This document shows positions 1,325 to 32,095 of a DNA stretch of 64,000 nt, one piece after another (within the stretch, counting starts at the first letter, position 1; each line of letters begins with the position of its first letter). The stretch covers positions 2,392,879-2,456,878 of the forward strand of contig NZ_AZAJ01000001.1 of assembly GCF_000504205.1 (NCBI RefSeq), given 5' to 3'. A program made the translations under genes and the position numbers. The notes under the pieces were generated by a model, which was not told the origin of the DNA, searched no databases, and saw only the letters and a list, made by a program, of their open reading frames with translations. The DNA comes from Methanolobus tindarius DSM 2278 (GTDB lineage: Archaea; Halobacteriota; Methanosarcinia; Methanosarcinales; Methanosarcinaceae).

Positions 1325-2370
1325 TACCACACCTGCCTTATTTTTTCCAGATAACTAATTGCAGAATACATTTTCTCAGGCTTTATGCTGTAATAGTTAT
1401 CATCTTTGACAATGAGATCCATATCTGACAACTGGAAGAAAGCTTTGTTTATTTCCGTGGAATTTCCACTGCAATCCCAGCTTATTGAGTCTGCGATTTC
1501 ATCTTTTGTGATATGGCCGTATGAGATTATCAGGGCCAGAATGAACTGCCCGGTATTGTCAAGATCAATGTCAATATGGGCATCTGTGGTGCTGCTCACT
1601 TTTATCTGGTTATTGTCAAGCCATTTGGTCCATATTTCCTTTGCAAGTCCCGGATTGCCATAAGATATTTTTGTTATTTCTCTGAGTATTACCGATTCCG
1701 GACTTTCATCATTATTTCTCTGTAGCAAAGAGAGCAGGTAAGAATAATTGATGTGTACACTATACAAATGTAATTTGCTTTTTGTTATCTTTTCAAGTAC
1801 CGGTTTTCTGGCTATTTCAATAACGTTTTTCTCTTCTTTCTGAGTATCATCTACAAATTCGATATCACTATTATCCTGAAGTAAAAAGTCTTTCATTTCC
1901 TCTTTTTCAAGTGAAGGAATTGTGATCTTAACAGAGAAATATTTGCTTATGTTTAGTACCTGGTCGAGATAGTTCCATGAATGTATGTTCCATGTGGTGA
2001 TACAAATTCCGTTGTCCTGTAACAGCATTTTGTTTAGGAATTCCTCTATTGTATCAAAGCCGCCTATCTTTCTTGTGTACAGGTAATGACAGTTATCAAA
2101 TATCATTATCCTTTCTTTTTTATCAGGAAGTGGAATATCTGATTTGTTTTTGGGAACCGATGAAAAAGTAGTCCTCGTTGTCTGACCAGGATAGGTTTGA
2201 ATTATATCTTCCACAAGCTGGGATTTTCCTCCGTAGGGTAAGGACAGTATCGCAATATTAAGCTTTTTTTCAGGGACATTATCGCTTATGGCTTTATTGA
2301 TAGTTTCAACTGCTTTATCAAAACCATAATGCAATTTACCTCCTGAATAGGTATTATAAGACGTTGTCAT
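1324..2370 (-). CDS. P-loop ATPase coupled to MscS
   Basis: A 348-residue ATPase with a C-terminal winged-helix-like part. A P-loop is visible at about residues 43-52 as SLPYGGKSQL, which keeps GKS but lacks the usual first Gly of GxxxxGK[ST]. A Walker B-like RIMIFDNCH follows near residue 90. The centre resembles AAA/STAND-type ATPases; the last 80 residues (GHITKDEIADSISWDC) look like a small helix-turn-helix domain. It is the upstream gene of a two-gene operon, and its TAA overlaps the ATG of the MscS gene. The coupling suggests regulation of, or a shared role with, the channel (inference). I cannot name the family more precisely. Confidence 0.75.
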   Translation of the reverse strand: MTTSYNTYSGGKLHYGFDKAVETINKAISDNVPEKKLNIAILSLPYGGKSQLVEDIIQTYPGQTTRTTFSSVPKNKSDIPLPDKKERIMIFDNCHYLYTRKIGGFDTIEEFLNKMLLQDNGICITTWNIHSWNYLDQVLNISKYFSVKITIPSLEKEEMKDFLLQDNSDIEFVDDTQKEEKNVIEIARKPVLEKITKSKLHLYSVHINYSYLLSLLQRNNDESPESVILREITKISYGNPGLAKEIWTKWLDNNQIKVSSTTDAHIDIDLDNTGQFILALIISYGHITKDEIADSISWDCSGNSTEINKAFFQLSDMDLIVKDDNYYSIKPEKMYSAISYLEKIRQVW

Positions 2371-2796
2371 ATGTTCTGAAATTAATAAACATGTTAAATA
2401 TTTTGTTCAATAACCACTTGCAGAGAAGTGTTTGTAACTCCCAGAGAAAGTAAGCTGTAAAATTATAAATAGTTCATGATTGGTCATTCCATCTTTTTTT
2501 ATGTTTGTATATAAGTAAAGACATCAGTCAAACTTCACAATTAATTTGAATCTAAATTTTGATAAGTATCAATGAGCACAACATAATTTAGGAATTATAG
2601 TTAAATTTGTATATTTAATGCAGGAATACAATTACCTAGTTACTTTCAGGAATATGTGAACAAAAGATCTGATCCAATGAGAAACTTTGCTAATACTGAT
2701 GTCGAAATTCTCAGGTAAATATAGAAGTGCTGCTAAGTTTCAATTGATAAAGAGAGAATAAAAAGGAAATTAATGCAGATATGCAGGGGAATTTGA
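2371..2796. other. Divergent AT-rich intergenic region
   Basis: A 426-bp non-coding stretch between the leftward ATPase gene and the rightward Cache gene. TATA-like sequences occur on the plus strand around 2460-2470 (AATTATAAATAG) and further AT-rich blocks lie around 2580-2620. The Cache gene has an SD-like AGGGGAA just before its start. No ORF or tRNA was seen. Confidence 0.5.
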
Positions 2797-5196
2797 ATGG
2801 GAGAGGAAAAAAGCTTCAGTGTTTTTGATCCTTCGATACGTTTTGAACATCGGGAATTTTATGAAGAGATCGTTAATGAACTCAATGTTATTATTCCGGT
2901 ATGTTTTTACGGAGAAGCTATTGCTATTTCAATAAGTGAAAATGCAACAGAACAGGATCAGATTACCGAATTAATGAAACGCGTGGAAAACTTTTCACGC
3001 CAGTTGTTGCAAATAACAAAGAAATTATTTGACCAGTATTACATTGCCAAAGAAGAACAACATGAATCAATTCTTCATACCACTGCTTACAATAAGATCA
3101 ACACTCTGGACAGGAATCTTCTTGAGCGGACCTGTGATGTGAGGTGGTGGGCTCTTGAAACTGCTTTTAGTGATTGTATTGAGTTTTATGAAAAAATCAG
3201 GCAAGACTCGGGTCCCATTTTGCATATTCTGGAAAATGTCCAGTTTCAATCTCAAGCCGGCGGGCAGGAAATTGCAGAGAGAACTGATTTTTCCATTTCA
3301 GTTTCAGAATCAAAAATGCTTTCTCAAATCACCGATAAGCTCAGAGCTTTTTCCGGATTACTAAAAGATAACGCTTTAAAGAGCTTTATAAGTGTATTTA
3401 AGCAATTTTGCCATAAATTTCAGGGAAGGGAAGAAAGCAGAAAATCACTGGAAGCTTTTTTGCAGGACCTGTTGGAGCTTGATTCCAGGATATCCTTTGC
3501 TTGCTATCGGCTGGAGGACATAAAAAATTCGTATACACTTTATCGAGATCTGGTAATTGCGGATTCAGAAGGATATATACTTGCGAATTCAAACAGCCAT
3601 AGAAGAGCAGAAGTTCTGGGTACCAGGGTAAATGATGAAGACTGGTTTATCAGGGCTTTGAACACCCAGAACGGAACAGAATATGTTGCCCAGGATATTT
3701 GTCCATCAAAAGTAGAAGAACAGCTTTCTCTTGTGTATTCCACTGCTGTTCGTGAGAATAGTGATGAACGTGGAAAGGTGCTTGGTGCCATGGGAATCTT
3801 CTTTGATTTCCAGGGAGAAGCCGGAATTATTCTGGATGAATATATGCCTTTAACTGAGGATGGGCTCATACAGGATGGCTGTTATTCTATGTTTACCAGC
3901 AGCGATGGAAAAATCATAGCTTCTACGGATGAAGATATACTTGAGATCGGTAAAAAGGCGCATATTCCAAGAAATAATCGTGCTCTTGCTGATGGTGAGC
4001 AGGTTAATACCTATATGGCTTTTGAAGGAGTTGACTCCGCAATTTTCTCTTCCAGAACAGATGGCTATCTGGAATACCGTGGGCTTGGCTGGAGTTCCCA
4101 TGTAATTCTTCCAAAATCACATATTTTTGCGGACACAATTCAGGCTGATGGGTTCAATATTGAAGCAAAGGAGTTAATGAATTCCAATATTAATCCTGAT
4201 ATTAACAAACAGACTTACGCAAAAATACAGAATGATAAAGATGATATTCAATTAATATCACTTAACGGGACTATATACGCCTCTAAAATGGGAAACCGTG
4301 GTGATCAGCTGGGGCCAATTTTCAGTCAGATAACCCATTCCAGCAATTTTATTACCTCTAAAATGGAAGAACTGCTACAGGAGATGGCAACCGTTGAACT
4401 CCAATTGAATTTAAAGACGCTGGAAAACTTTGCTAAACAGGCAATTGATCTTGTTGACAGGAACCTCTTTGAAAGGTCGGCTGATATCCGCTGGTGGTCA
4501 ACTGATGAATATTTCTGGAAAGCTCTTTCACATCCTTCAGAAGAAGAATTCATGAAAGCCAGTGACCGGCTTAAAGTTATCAATGGCAGTTATACAATGT
4601 ACAGGAATCTGGTTTTAGCAGATTCAAGTGGTACTATCAAAGCATGTTCAAATACAGAGTTGATGGATGAGCTTAGTGAAATTGATGTTTCAGATCATAT
4701 CTGGTTTCAGGAGGGTAGCAATACTTCACGTTCAAGCCAGTATGCTGTTCAGGATGTTATGGATTCTCCTCTTGAAAAGGATAAACCACGTTCTCTGATT
4801 TATGCCGGTGGTGTTCGTGAAAATGGAGCACGCGAAGGCAAATCAATTGGTGTGCTTGGCGTACTGTTTGATTGGGACACTGAAGCGAAAACCATATTGG
4901 AAACGTGTCTTCCAAAAGACCGCAAAGGTGATGTTATCCCCGGCAGTGTTGCTGTGTACGTTAATCAGGACTTTGAAGTTATTGAGACAACAGGAGAGAA
5001 TGATTTTTCCGTAGGTTCTGTTCTCTCTCTTCCTCATGAAGTTTCTTTTCTGCATTCTGGTGAGAAAGTTTCCGGTCTTTTTGAATCCAATGGCCAAAAG
5101 TATATTTATGGTGCATGCAGGACAAAGGGATACCGTGAATATCCGGGTTTGAATTGGGTTGCCTGTGTCCTGAGGCCAATTTCTACAGGTGCCTGA
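2797..5196 (+). CDS. Cytosolic double-Cache sensor-like protein
   Basis: A 799-residue protein with an internally duplicated Cache (PDC-like) sensor unit. Both halves start with a helix ending in DRNLxERxxDxRWW (about residues 108-124 and 545-561), then a YTxYRxLVxADSxG beta element (about 247 and 601), a VQD/AQD plus VRENxxxxGKxxGxxGxxFD stretch, and an EYPGLxW or EYRGLGW strand at the end. Cache domains normally bind small ligands outside the cell, but no signal peptide or membrane helix is seen here and no methyl-accepting, kinase or cyclase output domain is present, so it appears to be a free cytosolic sensor. Start ATG follows AGGGGAA. It lies upstream of the potassium channel gene on the same strand, 110 bp apart. 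Confidence 0.8.
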   Translation: MGEEKSFSVFDPSIRFEHREFYEEIVNELNVIIPVCFYGEAIAISISENATEQDQITELMKRVENFSRQLLQITKKLFDQYYIAKEEQHESILHTTAYNKINTLDRNLLERTCDVRWWALETAFSDCIEFYEKIRQDSGPILHILENVQFQSQAGGQEIAERTDFSISVSESKMLSQITDKLRAFSGLLKDNALKSFISVFKQFCHKFQGREESRKSLEAFLQDLLELDSRISFACYRLEDIKNSYTLYRDLVIADSEGYILANSNSHRRAEVLGTRVNDEDWFIRALNTQNGTEYVAQDICPSKVEEQLSLVYSTAVRENSDERGKVLGAMGIFFDFQGEAGIILDEYMPLTEDGLIQDGCYSMFTSSDGKIIASTDEDILEIGKKAHIPRNNRALADGEQVNTYMAFEGVDSAIFSSRTDGYLEYRGLGWSSHVILPKSHIFADTIQADGFNIEAKELMNSNINPDINKQTYAKIQNDKDDIQLISLNGTIYASKMGNRGDQLGPIFSQITHSSNFITSKMEELLQEMATVELQLNLKTLENFAKQAIDLVDRNLFERSADIRWWSTDEYFWKALSHPSEEEFMKASDRLKVINGSYTMYRNLVLADSSGTIKACSNTELMDELSEIDVSDHIWFQEGSNTSRSSQYAVQDVMDSPLEKDKPRSLIYAGGVRENGAREGKSIGVLGVLFDWDTEAKTILETCLPKDRKGDVIPGSVAVYVNQDFEVIETTGENDFSVGSVLSLPHEVSFLHSGEKVSGLFESNGQKYIYGACRTKGYREYPGLNWVACVLRPISTGA

Positions 5197-6881: not shown

Positions 6882-6955
6882 TAAGCCCCTGGAGAGATTC
6901 GAACCCTCGGCCTGCTGATTACGAATCAGCCGCTATACCGCTAAGCCACAGAGGC
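6882..6955. repeat. Left attachment repeat (74 bp)
   Basis: Direct repeat identical to 32022-32095. Identity stops sharply on both sides: GTAAG against CTAAG on the left, GGCTTGC against GGCAAAA on the right. This is the expected product of site-specific integration, but it spans the entire tRNA instead of only its 3' part. Confidence 0.9.
6884..6955 (-). tRNA. tRNA-Thr(CGU), left copy (att)
   Basis: On the minus strand a 72-nt cloverleaf can be drawn: acceptor GCCTCTG pairs with CAGGGGC; anticodon arm GCTGA-TTCGTAA-TCAGC gives anticodon CGU; T arm GAGGG-TTCGAAT-CTCTC. The discriminator is U and no CCA is encoded. The sequence equals the right copy at 32024. Its 5' flank is element DNA and shows no TATA box at the expected distance, so this copy is probably the att duplicate and may be silent. 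Confidence 0.88.
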
Positions 6956-7004
6956 TTGCGGGTTTTGCATTGAATGAGCGCTCAAAATCGACCTCCGTCA
7001 TCAA

Positions 7005-7037: not shown

Positions 7038-8084
7038 ATGGAGATGGGAATTTATCGATTGAATCTTGCAAGGCGTATAGAAAAATTGAAACAATCTGAC
7101 ATATCGGATACGAATAAAAGCCTTATTCAAAGTTTTGTGCATTTTTGTGTGGTTACTGGTATTGGTGAGCATAGGATTCTCAAATATATTTCTACGCTGA
7201 AATGCATAGCAATCAGCATTCAAACCGATTTTGATAAAGTTGACCTTGAATGTCTTCAGTCATATGTTGCAACCCTTGAGCAATCGGATTATAGTGAGCA
7301 TACAAAGCACGATTACAAGGTCACCATCAAGAAATTCTATAGATGGCACTACGATGACGAAAACCCTAAACTCATCAAATGGATAAAAGCTAGAATCAAC
7401 ACTAAGCGGTGTAAATCGCCGGAAGCAGTTCTGAATGAACCAGAAGTACTTCAACTCATAGATATATCATCAAATCGTCGTGATAAGGCTCTTATCGCTC
7501 TTCTGTGGGACATTGGAGGGCGTATTGGAGAGATTGGTACATTGCTAATTAAGCATGTTCTTTTTGATGATATGGGGGCTGTCATTCATGTCAACGGTAA
7601 AACGGGTCCTAGAAGGGTGCGAGCAGTATTCTCCGTTCAGTATCTCAAGGAATGGATTTCCGAGCATCCCGGTAAAGATGACCCGGAGGCTCCACTGTGG
7701 ATTAAATTAAATTCTGGTAGTAAAGTTGTTATGCTTCAGTACGGTGCCATCAGGATGCAACTAATTAAAATTGCTAAACGAGCAGGCACAAATAAACGAA
7801 TTCATGCACATCTATTCAGACATAGCCGGGCCACTCATATGGCGAATTATCTAACAGAATTTCAGATGTGCCAATATTTTGGATGGACCCTTGGCTCTGA
7901 CATGCCAGCTACGTATGTTCACCTGTCAGGTCGTGACGTGGATGATGCGGTTCTTAAGGCAAATGGTGTGAAGCAAGGTGAAAGTTCCTTTATGAATGAG
8001 TATATGGGGAATTTGGATGTATCTGATATTGATGTGTTGGTGGAGCAGAAACTGAAATCGATGATGTTGAAATTATTGACTTAA
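7038..8084 (+). CDS. Tyrosine recombinase (integrase)
   Basis: A 348-residue site-specific recombinase expected to integrate and excise the element at the tRNA-Thr gene. An N-terminal SAM-like core-binding domain (about 1-125) precedes the catalytic domain. Catalytic residues can be read: Arg in GGRIGE (near 160), Lys in NGKTGPRR (near 190), HLFRHS (near 258), and the nucleophile in ATYVHLS (near 293). The usual second H/W before the Tyr appears as GWT. It starts 83 bp from the left att repeat, the usual integrase position, with a possible SD (GGATGG) before ATG 7038. The gene is intact and not split by att, so it is not of the SSV type that is disrupted on integration. Confidence 0.92.
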   Translation: MEMGIYRLNLARRIEKLKQSDISDTNKSLIQSFVHFCVVTGIGEHRILKYISTLKCIAISIQTDFDKVDLECLQSYVATLEQSDYSEHTKHDYKVTIKKFYRWHYDDENPKLIKWIKARINTKRCKSPEAVLNEPEVLQLIDISSNRRDKALIALLWDIGGRIGEIGTLLIKHVLFDDMGAVIHVNGKTGPRRVRAVFSVQYLKEWISEHPGKDDPEAPLWIKLNSGSKVVMLQYGAIRMQLIKIAKRAGTNKRIHAHLFRHSRATHMANYLTEFQMCQYFGWTLGSDMPATYVHLSGRDVDDAVLKANGVKQGESSFMNEYMGNLDVSDIDVLVEQKLKSMMLKLLT

Positions 8085-8340: not shown

Positions 8341-8499
8341 ATGATAAGAAGACATAACAGAACTTTTACTATTGACATAGTTCTAGATGACAAAATAAAC
8401 GACATAAAAGGCAATCACAGTCGTTCTGATGTAGTAAATAAAGCCCTAGCTCACTATTTTGAAAGCATTTACAATGAAGAAAAAGTAAATAATAATTAA
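8341..8499 (+). CDS. Ribbon-helix-helix regulator
   Basis: A 52-residue protein with the pattern of a CopG/Arc-type ribbon-helix-helix DNA-binding domain: a short basic start, the strand FTIDIVLDD, then helices KINDIKG and SRSDVVNKALAHYFESI. Such proteins commonly control copy number or early promoters in plasmids. The frame is open upstream to a TTG at 8293, but ATG 8341 leaves exactly the RHH fold. It is the first gene before the helicase and lies downstream of 13-bp motif copy 1, so autoregulation through that motif is an attractive but untested idea. Confidence 0.7.
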   Translation: MIRRHNRTFTIDIVLDDKINDIKGNHSRSDVVNKALAHYFESIYNEEKVNNN

Positions 8500-8558: not shown

Positions 8559-11162
8559 ATGCTAATTGATTTTGACAGATATAAACATTTTCCCATTCAT
8601 GATTCTAGACTTGAGATAGCTTACAAGCTTGTGAATTCATGTAACATTGGTGATTTACTTAAAATATGCAAAACAACCAGAGCGGGAGCTACGACTTCAT
8701 TATTGGTTGCACTATTAATGCTGAATCAGCCTTTTTTAGTGTTGGAGCCAACTAATAAAATTATAAAAGAAACAATCATTAAAAACGTAGCTAAACATAG
8801 TAAAAAAAATGTGCAAATAATACATGTCCCTTCAAATAAAGAATGCATCCGCAACAAACTCAAAATTGAAAATAACAAGGCTTTAGAGGCACTTCCTTAC
8901 TTATTCTTGCCCACAGACTGTGGAAAGGATTGCAAATATTATAATGAATGCCCAGTGACACAAATTCTGCGAGTTGAACGTTTTGATGGCATAGCGATGA
9001 CCTACGATAAACTCCTTGCACTGAAAATAAGTTCTGAGCTCTATGGAAATAAAACTTCTATAGAAATATTATCAAAAATAGAAAATGCAATCAAATTTAT
9101 TTTATTGGATGAAGCTCACGAGTTGATGTATGATACAATATCAAGTTTGGAAAAGAGAAACACGCATAACCGTGCCTTTGCTGAAAATCTCTATCGCAAA
9201 TTTAAAAAAATAAATGATATGAATTATAATCCAGATTTTCAGATTTTAAGACTGCTGATTTTGAATTATGCTTTACTTATAAATGAGCCTGATATTAAAA
9301 AAATAGATGATGAATTATTGCAAATGTTAAGAGATGATAAAAGACCTACATTTCAAAAACATCAATCAGCCTCTATTAAAAATCCACGTTCAAGAACTGT
9401 ATTTCACTGTGCAATTAAGCCAAAAAATGAAGATGATTTAATATCAGGAGACTTCTGCAAAAATGGATTCTTTATAGGAGAACTTACCGAAAATAGATGT
9501 CAAGAAGCTTATTTTAATATTTATAACCAAATAATCCAGCTTGCTGATTACACCAAAAAATTCGATATCACGGTTGAAGATTTGACCGCTTTATGTGACA
9601 TGCTGAACCTTGAAATTGAGGAAAATCTCTCTGTCCATTGTCAACAAAAAAGAAAAATAAAGATGATAGGCGATAAGCGTCTTGAGTTCTGGGAGGAGCA
9701 CACTGACCTTTGTGCTGTGGACAAAAATAAAATCAGAATGCTTCAGCAATTCATTACAACAATACAAGATAAAACCAGCATACTAGTCACATCTGCAACG
9801 TTTTGTAGTTATGATTATTCCCAGCTATCACATCCTGAAAAAACTGTTCGAGAAGTCTTGTTCGGGATAAATGGAGACCCACTCAACACGAATTCTAAAC
9901 TGACCATCTTCGCAGACACATACACGTTCTCAGCTACAGGGGAATATTCAGTCTACAACCGCCGGGAGGAAATCAAACAACGATGCCAAGATGTCATGGA
10001 CATATATGGCGACGACGACTGTTTGATTATCTGTGCTAATAAAGAAGATTCCAAGTTGATAAAAAACCTCTTCGAAGATACTGAATACAATCCCGAGATT
10101 ACTTATTACAGAGCCTCGGAAGTTATGGGTGTTGAATCTTCAAAAAGAGTTTGTATTCTCATCGGTCTCGCCCACAAACCCGGCCATGCTTTTGATGTAA
10201 TGCGAGGCACTGCTAATGAAAGTCAAATTCTAAAAGAAGAATCAATGCATGCGGATGTGATGCAAGCTGCTTCCCGTGTTAAGGACCCAGCCGGACTTGA
10301 GCCATCAATTGTCTTTGCTCTCGGATGCCGGGAATATGACCTCAATAATGTGTTCAAATGGGGAATCGGAAGGGATGTTCATATTACCCAATCTGGAGGC
10401 AAAACCGTCCGCAAAGATATCGATGTAACCATCTCCGGCGATGAGATACCTCAACCTAACATCAAATACCTTCACGATTGGCAGGAAACTCTCGTTGAGA
10501 GTATACTTTGCAAAGAATCTTTGTATTCTTATGCCAAAAAATTACCATTATTATCTAATGTATATGGTACTTTTCAGGCTTATCAATACAAAATAAATTC
10601 TAAAAGTAATCTATTCGACTCATTCTTTGGACACCAAAACGTGGATACGTCTATACGAAACAGCGACGGCAGTTTCACCAAACCGGAATTGATTACAGAT
10701 GAGCTTGTCTCCAAGCACTTGAGTGAAAAGATAGAACTCCACTTCAACTCACTCCAGCCTGACAACTCCGTCAATTTCGTCATGTTTGAGTCCTTCAATG
10801 AACAGGACATTCATCGCCTGAAGATTCATCTCGACAGCATGGAAATCCCCTACGTCATCGAAAAGCTGGTTCCCTATGTCAATATCTCCATTAGACCAGA
10901 CCCTCTACGTGTCTGGATACTGCTTGAACCTGTTCCGGCAAGTCTTGCAAACCAGTTTGCTAAGAACCTATTGAAGCAAGCCGGGTTCAAGGTAAGAGGT
11001 GATAAAGAGATTGACTTCTATCCGAAAAAAACAAAAAGGAATCCTCGCAACAAAGGTGCACGCATTCGAATGCCATTCGGAAAGGGCTCAAAAATTCTTG
11101 TGGATGGTGAATTTGTTGATGATTTTGAGGAACTGAACTTTGGAAATCTCATACTCACCTGA
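8559..11162 (+). CDS. Fe-S SF2 helicase fused to AEP-primase-like domain
   Basis: An 867-residue protein, probably the element's replication protein. The N-terminal part resembles XPD/DinG superfamily 2 helicases: a P-loop-like TTRAGATTS near residue 40, a Cys cluster (C near 95, then CGKDCKYYNEC near 120-131) suggesting a 4Fe-4S site, LLDEAHEL near 182, VTSATF near 409, and a motif VI-like QAASRVKDP near 569. The C-terminal 130 residues (RVWILLEPVPASLANQF, then IDFYPKKTKR, then ARIRMPFG) follow the motif order of archaeo-eukaryotic primases, including the TOTE-type primase. Oddities: the Walker A Lys is replaced (GAT for GKT), and the DxD of primase motif I is not apparent (FVMFES stands there). 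It may be a DNA-binding or structural relic of primpol. Family assignment is from motifs only. Confidence 0.75.
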   Translation: MLIDFDRYKHFPIHDSRLEIAYKLVNSCNIGDLLKICKTTRAGATTSLLVALLMLNQPFLVLEPTNKIIKETIIKNVAKHSKKNVQIIHVPSNKECIRNKLKIENNKALEALPYLFLPTDCGKDCKYYNECPVTQILRVERFDGIAMTYDKLLALKISSELYGNKTSIEILSKIENAIKFILLDEAHELMYDTISSLEKRNTHNRAFAENLYRKFKKINDMNYNPDFQILRLLILNYALLINEPDIKKIDDELLQMLRDDKRPTFQKHQSASIKNPRSRTVFHCAIKPKNEDDLISGDFCKNGFFIGELTENRCQEAYFNIYNQIIQLADYTKKFDITVEDLTALCDMLNLEIEENLSVHCQQKRKIKMIGDKRLEFWEEHTDLCAVDKNKIRMLQQFITTIQDKTSILVTSATFCSYDYSQLSHPEKTVREVLFGINGDPLNTNSKLTIFADTYTFSATGEYSVYNRREEIKQRCQDVMDIYGDDDCLIICANKEDSKLIKNLFEDTEYNPEITYYRASEVMGVESSKRVCILIGLAHKPGHAFDVMRGTANESQILKEESMHADVMQAASRVKDPAGLEPSIVFALGCREYDLNNVFKWGIGRDVHITQSGGKTVRKDIDVTISGDEIPQPNIKYLHDWQETLVESILCKESLYSYAKKLPLLSNVYGTFQAYQYKINSKSNLFDSFFGHQNVDTSIRNSDGSFTKPELITDELVSKHLSEKIELHFNSLQPDNSVNFVMFESFNEQDIHRLKIHLDSMEIPYVIEKLVPYVNISIRPDPLRVWILLEPVPASLANQFAKNLLKQAGFKVRGDKEIDFYPKKTKRNPRNKGARIRMPFGKGSKILVDGEFVDDFEELNFGNLILT

Positions 11163-12565: not shown

Positions 12566-13036
12566 ATGACGAAACTGAAAATATTGCGCCTGCTTCAGCA
12601 TCAGGAGATGAAACCCAAAGAACTGGCACAGGAAATCGGCTTACAAAAGGTATATTCACATATTCGCAGCTTGAAAGACATGAGTCTGATTGAGAAGCAA
12701 AACAACAAATATCGTCTGACACCCAAGGGTATTGAATACCTTGAAAAGGGTGATTTCAGCGAAATCCTGCCACCGAAACTCTATGTAGATGACCTCACAG
12801 CCTTCATGTTGAAGCATGACAGACCAATGACAGCACGAGAGCTTCATGAAGCATTGCAAGACCCAAGGACGTTGCCGGATTTCCGGGCGTGGTTGAGTCA
12901 TCTGATACGAAGAAAGTATATCACAATCGACAAAACCCGGAGCGTGAGCACCTATCAAATCACAGCACGTGGAAGATTACATGGGGTTAATGGTGCTGAG
13001 TTCAGAAAACAAAGACATTGGACACGACTTTATTGA
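12566..13036 (+). CDS. Winged-helix DNA-binding protein
   Basis: A 156-residue protein with an N-terminal winged helix-turn-helix (KILRLLQHQEMKPKELAQEI, recognition helix VYSHIRSLKDMSLI, wing KNNKYRLTPKGIEYL) and a second helical unit (DRPMTARELHEAL, then FRAWLSHLIRRKYI, then VSTYQITARGRLHG) that looks like another winged helix. It is therefore probably a tandem wHTH transcription regulator. An AT-rich TTTTTAAA about 25-30 bp before the ATG fits a TATA box and a near-leaderless transcript. It is one of several regulators of the element; targets are unknown. Confidence 0.75.
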   Translation: MTKLKILRLLQHQEMKPKELAQEIGLQKVYSHIRSLKDMSLIEKQNNKYRLTPKGIEYLEKGDFSEILPPKLYVDDLTAFMLKHDRPMTARELHEALQDPRTLPDFRAWLSHLIRRKYITIDKTRSVSTYQITARGRLHGVNGAEFRKQRHWTRLY

Positions 13037-13190: not shown

Positions 13191-14075
13191 ATGAAATCAT
13201 TCAGAGATGGAACATTAAAATGGGCTATTTTGAACTATATACTCAACCATCCTGAATGCACCAGTCAGGATATTGCAAACCATGTCCAACATAGCAGCAT
13301 TAAGACTCTGCGTAGCGAAATCTATTATCTCCGCCGTTATGGTGGCTTCATTTCTGCTGACAAAAGCAGTATACCGCACCGTTTAACACTTTCGAAGTCA
13401 GGTAAAAATGAAACTCAGCAAGGTCCATATTCTGTGCAGATTAAGCGTCAGAAACGCCAAGAACGTATACTTGCGATGGTTTCTGCGATACTCAATGATG
13501 ATGAAAAGTTCGCTGAAGCTGTGAATGACGAAGTGGAAAAGGAAGTCAAACAGCGTATGAAAGAGATTGAATCCGGTGTCCGGGAAGCTCCTACGATAGT
13601 TGAGACCATTGAATCGAAGACTGACACTGAACTCAGGAAAGAGATTGAGAGCAAGGACATGCGTATTCATGAGTTACAGGCCCAAATCCAACATCTCCGG
13701 CTTCACAAAGCCAATGTCCCAACCCGTGCACCACCTGTTCAGAAATCACCTGAAGAGCAGAAAGCAGATGCAGAGAGAAGGCAACGAAGAGAACAACTTT
13801 CAATGAGGTATAGAGGAATGTTGCTGGATGCTCCTTTCTTTCACCATTGGAAAGACATGTTTCCCTTCCGTATGAAGCACTTGCAACTATACAAGGAAGG
13901 AAGTGTAGAAATCATGTCACCATCAAACCCAGAGCACCGAAGGGGTCATGCACGCCGTCCATTGAATCCGGCTGAGGTCATAGGTGGAAAGTATCACATT
14001 GTCAAGATGACAAAGCAAGGAATAGTCATTGAGGGTATGGGCCTTCCGGGTGGTCAAGCTTCATTACGATGGTAA
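13191..14075 (+). CDS. wHTH plus coiled-coil protein
   Basis: A 294-residue protein. Residues 1-65 form a winged-helix-like domain (LKWAILNYILNHPECTSQDI, then IKTLRSEIYYLRRYGGFIS, then HRLTLSKSGK). Residues 80-165 are highly charged with heptad spacing and should form a coiled coil (EVEKEVKQRMKEIESG, ELRKEIESKDMRIHELQAQI). A Pro-rich link follows, then a C-terminal segment rich in Arg/His with a GGKYHIV strand. Architecture suggests a DNA-binding protein that oligomerises, for example a replication/partition accessory or nucleoid-type protein (inference). Two tiny ORFs follow at once in the same direction. Confidence 0.7.
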   Translation: MKSFRDGTLKWAILNYILNHPECTSQDIANHVQHSSIKTLRSEIYYLRRYGGFISADKSSIPHRLTLSKSGKNETQQGPYSVQIKRQKRQERILAMVSAILNDDEKFAEAVNDEVEKEVKQRMKEIESGVREAPTIVETIESKTDTELRKEIESKDMRIHELQAQIQHLRLHKANVPTRAPPVQKSPEEQKADAERRQRREQLSMRYRGMLLDAPFFHHWKDMFPFRMKHLQLYKEGSVEIMSPSNPEHRRGHARRPLNPAEVIGGKYHIVKMTKQGIVIEGMGLPGGQASLRW

Positions 14076-17976: not shown

Positions 17977-18122
17977 AATGTTTCATTTGGCATGAGAACT
18001 TCAGTTTCGATGATTGAAAGAAGTTCAGTCTTTGAACGAAACAGTTTCACCCTGCTTAGATTATGCGTATATGATGTCAGTCAAATGATAGTAGTTAACA
18101 ACTTAAAAATACGGTGACTGAC

Positions 18123-19292
18123 ATGGTTAAGTTTGAATACGCATTCGATTCTCAAGGGAAAATACACTACATCAACAATCTTTACAAAGGTCACAATCTT
18201 GGTCCATTCACATGTATCACATGTGGGGAACCTATGAAAGCTAGACCTGGAAAAGGTGTCGATAAAGGTGGAAACACCCCTCATTTTGCACATAAATCGT
18301 CATCATACAACCATGCTGATGAATCTGAATTGCATTATAATACCAAGGCATATCTATCCCTGAAACTAAATGAGATACTTGATTCCAATGACAAAAATGA
18401 ATTCATAATCAACGTTTTCTGCAATGACTGTAATTCAACCAAGAGGGCATCTTTGCTTTATGGTCTTGATGATGAATCGATGAAATCATTAAAGTTAGGT
18501 AATTATTCAAATAATCTTCATGAACAGCCAACAACACACAATTTTGAATATAATTTACTCCAAGATGTCACCAGTGTGAAGCCGGAAAAGAAAGTTGACA
18601 ACTTTGTACCTGATGTTTCACTATACCACGGTGAGGCTCTAATAAAGGCGATAGAAGTCGTTTACACTCATGAAGATGAAGATGTGAAAGTGCAATACTA
18701 CAGGAACGAAAAGATAGATGTTGTGCGGGTTTATGTTAAAACAGATGATGACTTGAGAGACTTAGAAAATGGTATATTGGACATGATTGAAGTTGAACTG
18801 AACCGTACTGTGTGTCAGTTTAAGTCACCTATAAGCAAAGATGAGATGTCTATCAATTTGTATTTTAGAAGCATGCAGTATTACCGATACATACGGGAAA
18901 TATTTGAGCCATTTTTCTCTAAAATGGATGATTACATCAATAGAGCTTTAATATCGAACAGAAAAGTGAATCTCAAGAAGATATTCAGTGATGAAAGCAA
19001 ATCTAATAGCAAAACAACAAGCGATTCCGAACTTCATGAGATAAGAAAACCTGATAACAAAATAAAAAACGATTCCGAACTTTACGAGATGATACGTAAA
19101 TACCGGAAAGCTCGTAGGACTGCTGCACTAACATCTTATGACGTACAAGAATTCATGGATGAAAACCCACATAGCGATATTGACCCTAAAAACGTGGATA
19201 GACTCATAAAAATGGGGAATGCATGTGGATGGGGATATTTCGTAAAAGCCATCGAGCATTATCACAAATATAAGCCATACAACAAATATTAG
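18123..19292 (+). CDS. CoiA-like nuclease with GNACGWG C-terminal module
   Basis: A 389-residue protein. ATG 18123 is preferred because GGTG lies six bases before it. Near residues 30-60 it has the CoiA-type zinc/HFAH start (CITCGEPMKARPGK, then PHFAHK). A PD-(D/E)XK-like core follows with NFVPDVSLY (Asp near 165) and KAIEVVYTHE (Glu near 180), lacking a clear Lys. After a charged linker with a small internal repeat (DSELHEI / DSELYEM) comes a C-terminal module of about 65 residues, ELYEMIRKYRKARRTAALTS through GNACGWG, that also exists as a separate gene at 25169. CoiA proteins act in DNA uptake or processing in bacteria; here the role is unknown. Confidence 0.75.
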   Translation: MVKFEYAFDSQGKIHYINNLYKGHNLGPFTCITCGEPMKARPGKGVDKGGNTPHFAHKSSSYNHADESELHYNTKAYLSLKLNEILDSNDKNEFIINVFCNDCNSTKRASLLYGLDDESMKSLKLGNYSNNLHEQPTTHNFEYNLLQDVTSVKPEKKVDNFVPDVSLYHGEALIKAIEVVYTHEDEDVKVQYYRNEKIDVVRVYVKTDDDLRDLENGILDMIEVELNRTVCQFKSPISKDEMSINLYFRSMQYYRYIREIFEPFFSKMDDYINRALISNRKVNLKKIFSDESKSNSKTTSDSELHEIRKPDNKIKNDSELYEMIRKYRKARRTAALTSYDVQEFMDENPHSDIDPKNVDRLIKMGNACGWGYFVKAIEHYHKYKPYNKY

Positions 19293-25168: not shown

Positions 25169-25429
25169 TCACACATTAAAGACTTGAAAGTGTCTGAATG
25201 CCTGCATATGGTTCTCAAAATGCTCACAGGCAATGTCATAAGTTCCCCACCCGCAAGCATTTCCAAGAATGATGTTCTTCAGCACTATGTCGGGAAGCAG
25301 GTCAGTTGATTGTGTTTCAATGAAGGACTGAACGTCAAGTGAGGTCAGTGCACCGGTTCTTTTGTTCTTTCGGTATTCATTGATTCGGTCATAAAGTTCA
25401 TTTTCACTCTGGATGGTTGTGTCATTCAT
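25169..25429 (-). CDS. Stand-alone GNACGWG module
   Basis: An 86-residue protein almost entirely made of the module that ends the CoiA-like nuclease at 18123: ENELYDRINEYRKNKRTGAL, TSLDVQSFI, then GNACGWGTYDIACEHF, against DSELYEMIRKYRKARRTAAL, TSYDVQEFM, then GNACGWGYFVKAIEHY. The module is helical with an invariant-looking N-A-C-G-W-G turn. The same module both fused and free in one element implies a shared partner or a regulator/antagonist relation (inference). No known domain name comes to mind. Confidence 0.68.
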   Translation of the reverse strand: MNDTTIQSENELYDRINEYRKNKRTGALTSLDVQSFIETQSTDLLPDIVLKNIILGNACGWGTYDIACEHFENHMQAFRHFQVFNV

Positions 25430-27740: not shown

Positions 27741-28583
27741 TCACATGTATTCATCATCATGGAACATGTCTTCTGCCATGCTTTCCAGTATTGATATTGT
27801 AACAGGCAGAGTTTCAGAATCAATAATCTCATTAACGTCATACAGGTGCAAAATTCCGTGTCTGGAGAAGTAGACTCCAATTTTATCTATGGTTGAGCCA
27901 TCTATCTTTTCTTCCCCGATTCCGCCTATGACTCCAAGAAGGTAATAGCCCACGATTTGGTTAAAAATGTCCCTTGTCACTGATAAGTTCTTGGTGGTCT
28001 TTATGTCTATCATCATGTTATCAATGACTAAATCAGCATCAGCACCACCTACAAGGTAAGAACCTTCATTGAATATTGGGTTCAATAAACAATGCTTTTT
28101 AGCCTTGAATAGGTCGAAATCAACAATGCTGATTAGGTTTTTGAGGTCTTGGATGTCTTCAGGTTCAATCTGCATTGGAATATCATATACATCCCTTCCT
28201 GCTCTGTAATACATATCGAGGTGTGCCAGCATCAGAGACGATTTCAGTAAATCATCGGTGAGTATACCATCATTCAGGAACTGATTATATGCATTTGTTG
28301 CAAAATCAAGGTCATTCTTCGCTTTTGCGTAATACTCAACGGATTCACGCTCTTCCATTCTGGCACAGGCTCCTTCTGCAACCCATCTATCTGTGATTGC
28401 ATCAGGATTGTGGTATTTCAGGTGAAATCGCATAAGATAGTCAAATGCAGTGCCAATCATAGGGGGCTTATTTGTCAGAAGTGGTGCTTTGATTTCACCG
28501 GCAATTTTACCTCTTGGCTTCTGGAATTCATCTGCAAATATTGCCTTTACGTCCTTATCCTTCAGAAAATCAGTTAAACTCAT
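27741..28583 (-). CDS. RecB-like PD-(D/E)XK nuclease
   Basis: A 280-residue protein of the RecB/Cas4-like PD-(D/E)XK class. Motif set: MIGTAFDYLMRFHL near residue 42 (the helical entry motif), GGADADLVIDNMMIDIKTTK with Asp near 185 and D-x-K near 195, followed by the helix FNQIVGYYLLG with the typical Q-x-x-x-Y. No helicase domain or 4-Cys Fe-S cluster is present. It could serve element recombination or defence. It is convergent with the 27366 gene and divergent from the membrane-protein gene at 28706. Confidence 0.75.
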   Translation of the reverse strand: MSLTDFLKDKDVKAIFADEFQKPRGKIAGEIKAPLLTNKPPMIGTAFDYLMRFHLKYHNPDAITDRWVAEGACARMEERESVEYYAKAKNDLDFATNAYNQFLNDGILTDDLLKSSLMLAHLDMYYRAGRDVYDIPMQIEPEDIQDLKNLISIVDFDLFKAKKHCLLNPIFNEGSYLVGGADADLVIDNMMIDIKTTKNLSVTRDIFNQIVGYYLLGVIGGIGEEKIDGSTIDKIGVYFSRHGILHLYDVNEIIDSETLPVTISILESMAEDMFHDDEYM

Positions 28584-31140: not shown

Positions 31141-31719
31141 ATGTACTCGAAAGAATGGCTAAGAGTTGAGGAAATCGAAAGCATGCTTTCATTGCCTAAT
31201 CTCGAAGAAAAGTATGAGATTTGGATTCTTTTGCTCTACGTTCCAGCACTGAGGGTTACCGAGGCTATTAATGTCAGAGACCGAGACCTTGACCTTGAGG
31301 GTGAATCTATTGACATATGGAAGGGAAAAGGGAAAGACGGGTATATGGAGAAAGTACCTTGTGATATTGCTACCTTGAAACGAATCAAGAGGTATTCACA
31401 GCATAATAATCTCAGACCAAACGACTACATAATGTTTAGCAACAAATCCGGCAAAGTGCACCGAAGCCATGTTTACAAGGTTGTGAACAAGATATTGCAA
31501 CAGGTCAACCCGGATAAGACGATTGGAACACACACCTTCAGAAGGTCCAGAGCACAGCATCTATTGGACTCAGGACTGCCATTGGTCTATGTTTCGAAGC
31601 TGTTGAGACATAAGAACCTGTCAACCACTATGCATTACTTGAACGTCTCTGTGACCGACATACAGCGTGAAATGGAGAAAATCAGTGACCCAATGGATAA
31701 GATTAGTGCTGTGATTTGA
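31141..31719 (+). CDS. Catalytic-domain-only tyrosine recombinase
   Basis: A 192-residue XerA/Int-type catalytic domain with all expected residues: Arg in ALRVTE (near 37), Lys in KGKGKDG (near 64), HTFRRS (near 132), LLRHKN (near 157) and MHYLN (Tyr near 166). The N-terminal core-binding domain is missing, and no coding sequence for it is seen upstream. No SD; the T-rich TATA-like sequence 30 bp upstream suggests a leaderless mRNA. It lies near the right end of the element. It could be an excisionase-like helper, a resolvase acting on multimers, or a competitor of the left integrase (all inference). Confidence 0.85.
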   Translation: MYSKEWLRVEEIESMLSLPNLEEKYEIWILLLYVPALRVTEAINVRDRDLDLEGESIDIWKGKGKDGYMEKVPCDIATLKRIKRYSQHNNLRPNDYIMFSNKSGKVHRSHVYKVVNKILQQVNPDKTIGTHTFRRSRAQHLLDSGLPLVYVSKLLRHKNLSTTMHYLNVSVTDIQREMEKISDPMDKISAVI

Positions 31720-32021: not shown

Positions 32022-32095
32022 TAAGCCCCTGGAGAGATTCGAACCCTCGGCCTGCTGATTACGAATCAGCCGCTATACCGCTAAGCCACAGAGGC
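32022..32095. repeat. Right attachment repeat (74 bp)
   Basis: Identical to 6882-6955. The flank at and beyond 32096 is chromosomal and carries the tRNA promoter. Confidence 0.9.
32024..32095 (-). tRNA. tRNA-Thr(CGU), right copy, probably the active one
   Basis: Same 72-nt cloverleaf as the left copy, anticodon CGU, discriminator U, no encoded CCA. A TATA box (CTATATAAT on the plus strand at 32118-32126) sits 23-31 bp upstream of the 5' end. This copy therefore keeps the native promoter, with at least part of its 3' end supplied by the element. It faces away from Trm5. Confidence 0.93.

Follow-up and report, generated by a model that had tools for sequence, protein, structure and literature searches.

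The window, a 64,000-nucleotide stretch of the Methanolobus tindarius DSM 2278 genome, contains an integrated mobile element near whose left end lies an intact open reading frame for an 867-residue protein that combines a helicase part with a primase fold. The features of the element are as follows, where att denotes the attachment sites at its ends.

6956-32021: integrated mobile element of ~25.1 kb, with tRNA repeats at its ends and an empty site in a relative
6883-6956 (-): copy of tRNA-Thr(CGT), left end (att), found by ARAGORN and identical to the right copy
7038-8084 (+): tyrosine integrase adjoining the left att (Pfam Phage_integrase, 57.6 bits)
8341-8499 (+): small ribbon-helix-helix-like (CopG-like) ORF, 52 residues, 59 bp upstream of the helicase gene
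8559-11162 (+): helicase/pseudo-primase fusion, 867 residues (model pLDDT 84.3, pTM 0.82)
12566-13036 (+): winged-helix protein (Pfam HTH_45, 30.8 bits)
13191-14075 (+): winged-helix and coiled-coil protein
31141-31719 (+): short tyrosine recombinase, 192 residues (Pfam Phage_integrase, 87.4 bits)
32024-32095 (-): native tRNA-Thr(CGT) beside a trm5-like gene, right end (att), found by ARAGORN

The element is framed by identical 74-bp repeats (6882-6955 and 32022-32095), each of which is a tRNA-Thr(CGT), and this tRNA was matched together with its neighbouring gene in 26 of the 27 genomes of the genus Methanolobus. In one related genome (L124), the sequence of the window's left flank occurs within ~0.8 kb of the tRNA and nothing there matches the element; this arrangement therefore represents the empty site. 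Several features recur at loci of the lineage to which the window protein belongs, which is defined below. At all eight lineage loci, the helicase gene is closely preceded on its own strand by a ribbon-helix-helix-like ORF, as judged partly by inspection and counting one locus (L067) where only the N-terminal part of the helicase is visible; the Pfam model for this fold scored above its cut-off in two of the seven small ORFs tested, with the window ORF below it. A winged-helix and coiled-coil protein neighbours four of the lineage genes, and the ORF at 13191-14075 is distantly related to this protein (hhalign probability 95.6, E 1.2e-8). Relatives of the short recombinase are found at three other lineage loci (L058, L059 and L018, with 65%, 50% and 25% identity, respectively). 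A search upstream of and near the helicase gene found no iterons, origin-like repeats or clear origin.

The remaining ORFs of the element include winged-helix, CoiA-like, transglutaminase-like and nuclease-like proteins. The C-terminal segment of the CoiA-like protein (18114-19289) recurs on the other strand as a separate 86-residue ORF (25172-25429), and a PD-(D/E)XK-like protein at 27741-28583 (-) matches the PADLOC candidate PDC-S61 (E 2.5e-12). Neither a second replication protein nor a terminase was recognised among the scanned element ORFs; in the latter respect the element is unlike the tailed proviruses that hold several relatives of the fusion protein with an intact primase site.

The architecture of the 867-residue protein was analysed with an AlphaFold2 model built from 15 aligned relatives, by fold comparison and from the alignments, from which the positions of the motifs listed here were taken.

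8568-10526 (+): XPD/DinG-type SF2 helicase part, residues 4-656
8670-8693 (+): P-loop, K38-T-T-R-A-G-A-T45, with lysine at position 1 but absent from position 7
8844-8951 (+): four cysteines, C96, C121, C125 and C131, of a probable Fe-S cluster
9108-9119 (+): DEAH box (motif II), residues 184-187
9792-9800 (+): SAT (motif III), residues 412-414
10263-10289 (+): motif VI, QAASRVKDP, residues 569-577
10599-11159 (+): archaeo-eukaryotic primase (AEP) fold, residues 681-867
10788-10796 (+): AEP motif I site, E744-S-F746 instead of D-x-D
10908-10910 (+): R784 instead of the motif II histidine

As an initial sequence-only reading had proposed, the protein joins an XPD/DinG-like part to a C-terminal AEP, an assignment that fold matches, Pfam and the aligned relatives all bear out. 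Its key features recur in aligned relatives with 28-51% identity and are therefore not due to chance. The helicase part comes first (residues 4-656) and the AEP last (residues 681-867), which confirms that the order is the reverse of that in pRN1-type primpol-helicases, where an N-terminal AEP precedes the helicase. Fusions of the PrimPol-PV1 supergroup resemble the window protein in that an AEP and a helicase are combined in integrated elements or prophages, and some of these AEPs are fused to UL9-like putative helicases (PMC5862659). However, the helicase in those fusions mostly follows the AEP, whereas in the window protein the AEP is last and lacks catalytic residues. Searches of the open-access literature found neither an XPD/DinG-AEP fusion nor an SF2 helicase with a displaced P-loop lysine. 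Taken as a whole, the features suggest a replication protein of a kind about which little is known.

In the predicted model, residues 4-656 match DinG (VIA Z 23.3 to 6fws_A, 492 residues aligned at 8.9 Å), and Foldseek matches the same segment to DinG and XPD (E 8.4e-11). The only PADLOC model to match the protein, typeIV_DinG, covers residues 43-509 (E 3.5e-4). A Pfam scan recognised only the C-terminal AEP-TOTE domain, and profile comparison succeeded for one half of the protein: an AEP profile built from the lineage alone matched the solved MsCAPP structure (E 5.3e-8), whereas a sequence profile of the helicase alone matched no solved helicase. The helicase assignment is a predicted one that rests on the fold together with PADLOC and NCBIfam matches. 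The DEAH box and the Fe-S-type cysteines noticed at the outset stand; the latter follow motif Ia and precede the DEAH box, as in XPD and DinG, and probably bind an Fe-S cluster. Thus, the fold over residues 4-656, the DEAH and SAT motifs and the cysteines between motifs Ia and II are shared with XPD, DinG and type IV CasDinG, whereas the P-loop lysine at position 1 rather than 7, the motif VI pattern Q-x-x-S-R-x-K-D and the attached AEP set the window protein apart. In motif VI, where QxxGRxxR is expected, the first arginine is present and the position of the second is occupied by D576, a substitution that may leave ATP hydrolysis weak or absent. Despite 21-51% identity to the window protein, all rows of a 14-row alignment share K38, G43, T45, P64, T65, C125, C131, D184, E185, Q569, R573 and K575. 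Motif III reads SAT or TAT in the window lineage and SGT in the relatives L104-L111, which belong to a different family of the class.

Genome searches across the class Methanosarcinia detected the helicase family in 25 of 238 genomes, distributed over several families, and scans of IMG/VR contigs detected it there as well. Several relatives with an intact AEP occur in viral contigs or beside a terminase gene, as in L019, and catalytic relatives of the L006 type lie near terminase and ParB-methylase genes. Scans of genome contigs and viral contigs with the window protein as the single query returned no relative, and tblastn of this protein against plasmids and phages gave no match; with the catalytic relative L006, plasmids and phages were matched within the AEP range only. 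Individual relatives vary in layout. A viral protein of 1282 residues (L081:5352-9197, +) carries the displaced-lysine helicase C-terminally, reversing the layout of the window protein, behind an N-terminal part that contains a D-I-D stretch, although Pfam did not confirm an AEP there. In a 1217-residue relative (L112:799-4449, +), ~250 extra residues separate the helicase from the AEP and motif VI deviates (QTTGRFKS). A catalytic-type relative in G180 (L065:7716-11638, +) is split by a transposase-like ORF.

The P-loop indeed reads GAT (G43-A44-T45) where the Walker A sequence GK[T/S] is expected, and in the predicted model it is framed by a strand (residues 33-37) and a helix (residues 44-54). 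The further reading of it as a second lost active site was not supported, as every relative shares the change. In the 27 rows of a 30-row alignment that show this stretch, lysine is present at position 1 in all and at position 7 in none, the latter being A, C, G, V, F, M or Y, so a change peculiar to the window protein was rejected. The missing position-7 lysine spans the class Methanosarcinia and viral contigs, and it includes relatives with an intact primase site. The aligned sequences thus show that the whole family lacks the classical lysine and carries an invariant one at another place in the loop. Because the position-1 lysine is invariant and shared by the intact-primase relatives, the ATP site is changed but strongly conserved, and it is probably a working one. 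There is precedent among DNA-packaging motors: in the HK97 terminase TerL, ATPase activity requires K57, which precedes the classical lysine in the sequence, and in lambda gpA the classical lysine is missing and the upstream one is present (PMC9410871). As in these proteins, the important lysine of the window protein would lie upstream of the classical Walker A position with an arginine in the same loop. However, they are packaging motors and the window protein is of a helicase type. The likeness between the loops is most likely convergent, and it is by analogy that the displaced-lysine precedent would extend to an SF2 helicase.

These substitutions bear on a rival explanation in which both halves of the protein are catalytically dead, and it acts as a DNA-binding initiator that melts or marks the origin and recruits host proteins without ATP. 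The lack of a classical Walker lysine (A44), the aspartate in place of the second motif VI arginine and the missing DxD of the primase would all fit such a role. Nevertheless, we consider it unlikely, as the position-1 lysine, D184-E185 and the Q-R-K residues of motif VI are conserved across the diverged proteins of the 14-row alignment, and the ATP-site residues are kept in relatives with an intact primase too; had the protein no use for ATP, some of them should have been lost.

The C-terminal part, modelled on its own, adopts an AEP fold, as the sequence had led us to expect. It superimposes on the Marinitoga CRISPR-associated PrimPol (7nqd_A) with Z 16.4 and 3.0 Å over 176 residues, Foldseek retrieves the same protein with E 8.6e-9 followed by other AEPs, and Pfam AEP-TOTE (PF22548) matches residues 707-855 with 30.4 bits (cut-off 27). 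MsCAPP (PDB 7nqd/7p9j) is its closest solved structure; compared with the CRISPR-associated PrimPol, the window AEP lacks the DxD and the motif II histidine and is fused behind a helicase. Residues 681-862 also match HP0184 of Helicobacter pylori (PDB 2atz, Z 12.2), whose title names no function and which may be another AEP-fold protein. The absence of DxD from the primase part was correctly noted: E744-S-F746 occupies its place, and the motif II histidine is replaced as well (R784). In MpCAPP, the double mutation D177A+D179A abolishes activity (PMC8211822), and E744 and F746 are the window residues at the matching places. Some AEP families have glutamine at the motif II histidine position (PMC5862659); therefore, loss of the histidine is by itself no proof of inactivity. 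An acidic pair at another position, which would have spoken against the loss, was sought in the lineage alignment and rejected, as no other conserved acid pair is present.

The altered primase is not a single odd protein, as it had first appeared, since its loss of catalytic residues is shared by at least seven proteins of the Methanosarcinaceae. This lineage consists of the window protein, L002, L036, L037, L040, L041 and L004, and all seven lack D-x-D and the motif II histidine; the latter position is arginine or lysine throughout. By contrast, the 18 other relatives with an AEP in the alignment all keep the DxDxH acidic pair and the histidine, and in catalytic relatives a tail matching PriL models (best E 1.2e-4) is found that is absent from the window lineage. 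Judged by the alignment, the loss of primase residues is real and confined to one lineage, and the two altered sites differ in kind, the P-loop change being family-wide. The AEP is as conserved as the helicase, with identities of 53.0% versus 51.6% between the window protein and L036 and of 43.6% versus 42.5% between it and L037, which is the pattern that purifying selection, not decay, would give. Eleven of its residues (H720, E744, E768, K769, W786, K806, P839, F840, S844, G850 and F852) are invariant in six lineage rows. In the combined maximum-likelihood tree, the dead primase arises once (support 81); the helicase-only tree does not show this but does not reject it either (AU 0.163), and a single origin is compatible with, though not proven by, these trees. 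One lineage member, L004 of G052 (1423-4185, -), has an in-frame TAG at codon 713, between the helicase and the AEP, and its AEP was read from a second frame. Methanosarcinaceae can read TAG as pyrrolysine, and the L004 gene may be either read through or split.

Some room is left by these residues for an AEP that continues to synthesize or elongate primers at a rearranged active site, in which E744 would act with another acid and R784 would stand in for the histidine. The first motif I acid is kept in the lineage (glutamate in six of the seven proteins, aspartate in one), the motif reads EVD in L041 and ESE in L002, the domain is conserved and, as noted above, families without the histidine exist. 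We nonetheless regard this as quite improbable, since F746 sits at the second metal-ligand position of the window protein, no alternative conserved acid pair exists in the lineage and the PriL-like tail of the catalytic relatives is missing.

The match to typeIV_DinG and the nuclease-like ORFs raise the question of whether the protein instead acts in defence or in competition between elements, as type IV CasDinG and further DinG-type helicases of conflict systems do. However, a Pfam scan of element ORFs recognised no cas families, and the gene does not lie beside cas1/cas2, the placement by which a CRISPR PrimPol would be identified. Moreover, relatives include viral and proviral helicase-primases and the element contains no other recognised replication protein, and we give the defence role only a slim chance, ranking it behind the rearranged primase. 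That the protein is a decaying remnant in a dead element is hardly credible: catalytic residues are lost, and related genes carry an in-frame TAG or are split by a transposase-like ORF, but the 867-codon frame is intact, in several separate elements the dead domain is conserved to the same degree as the helicase, and the trees can accommodate a single ancient loss that was inherited in common.

We therefore favor, with a modest degree of confidence, the explanation that an integrative plasmid-like element uses the protein as its replication helicase or initiator, and that the protein combines a variant ATP site with a non-catalytic AEP. The integrase, the att sites, the empty site, the ribbon-helix-helix-like ORFs of the lineage and the lack of another recognised replication protein support this assignment; the aspartate in motif VI and the failure to find iterons or a clear origin upstream speak against it. 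A replication initiator had been suggested from the sequence, and it fits the genetic setting best; the other half of that suggestion, a protein that only binds and guides, is retained as the rival weighed above. We infer the functional steps, namely ATP hydrolysis, unwinding, origin binding, primer supply and copy control. In the proposed mechanism, the motor, which is of XPD/DinG type and includes the Fe-S domain, would hydrolyze ATP through the variant P-loop, with K38 as the phosphate-contacting lysine and R41 and motif VI residues R573 and K575 assisting, and the helicase would open the element DNA and track along it. The AEP domain would no longer make primers; it would be retained to hold DNA or to dock a partner, and would thereby place the helicase on the template or at the origin. 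Primers would come from the host PriS/PriL; a PriS gene is present in the host and could be their source. The upstream ribbon-helix-helix-like protein probably sets the amount of the helicase protein, as in copG-rep operons.

More broadly, and tentatively, for we place it a little short of an even chance, the Methanosarcinia and their viruses may harbor a family of ATP-hydrolyzing helicases with a displaced lysine, in one lineage of which, carried by plasmid-like elements, the primase became a non-catalytic, DNA-holding part that directs the initiation of replication. If this is true, a helicase ATP site can be built on a displaced lysine and such proteins should not be dismissed as dead, and the lineage would offer an example from nature of a primase that has become a structural component. 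The presence of catalytic and non-catalytic sisters within one archaeal family would allow both questions to be addressed by direct comparison.
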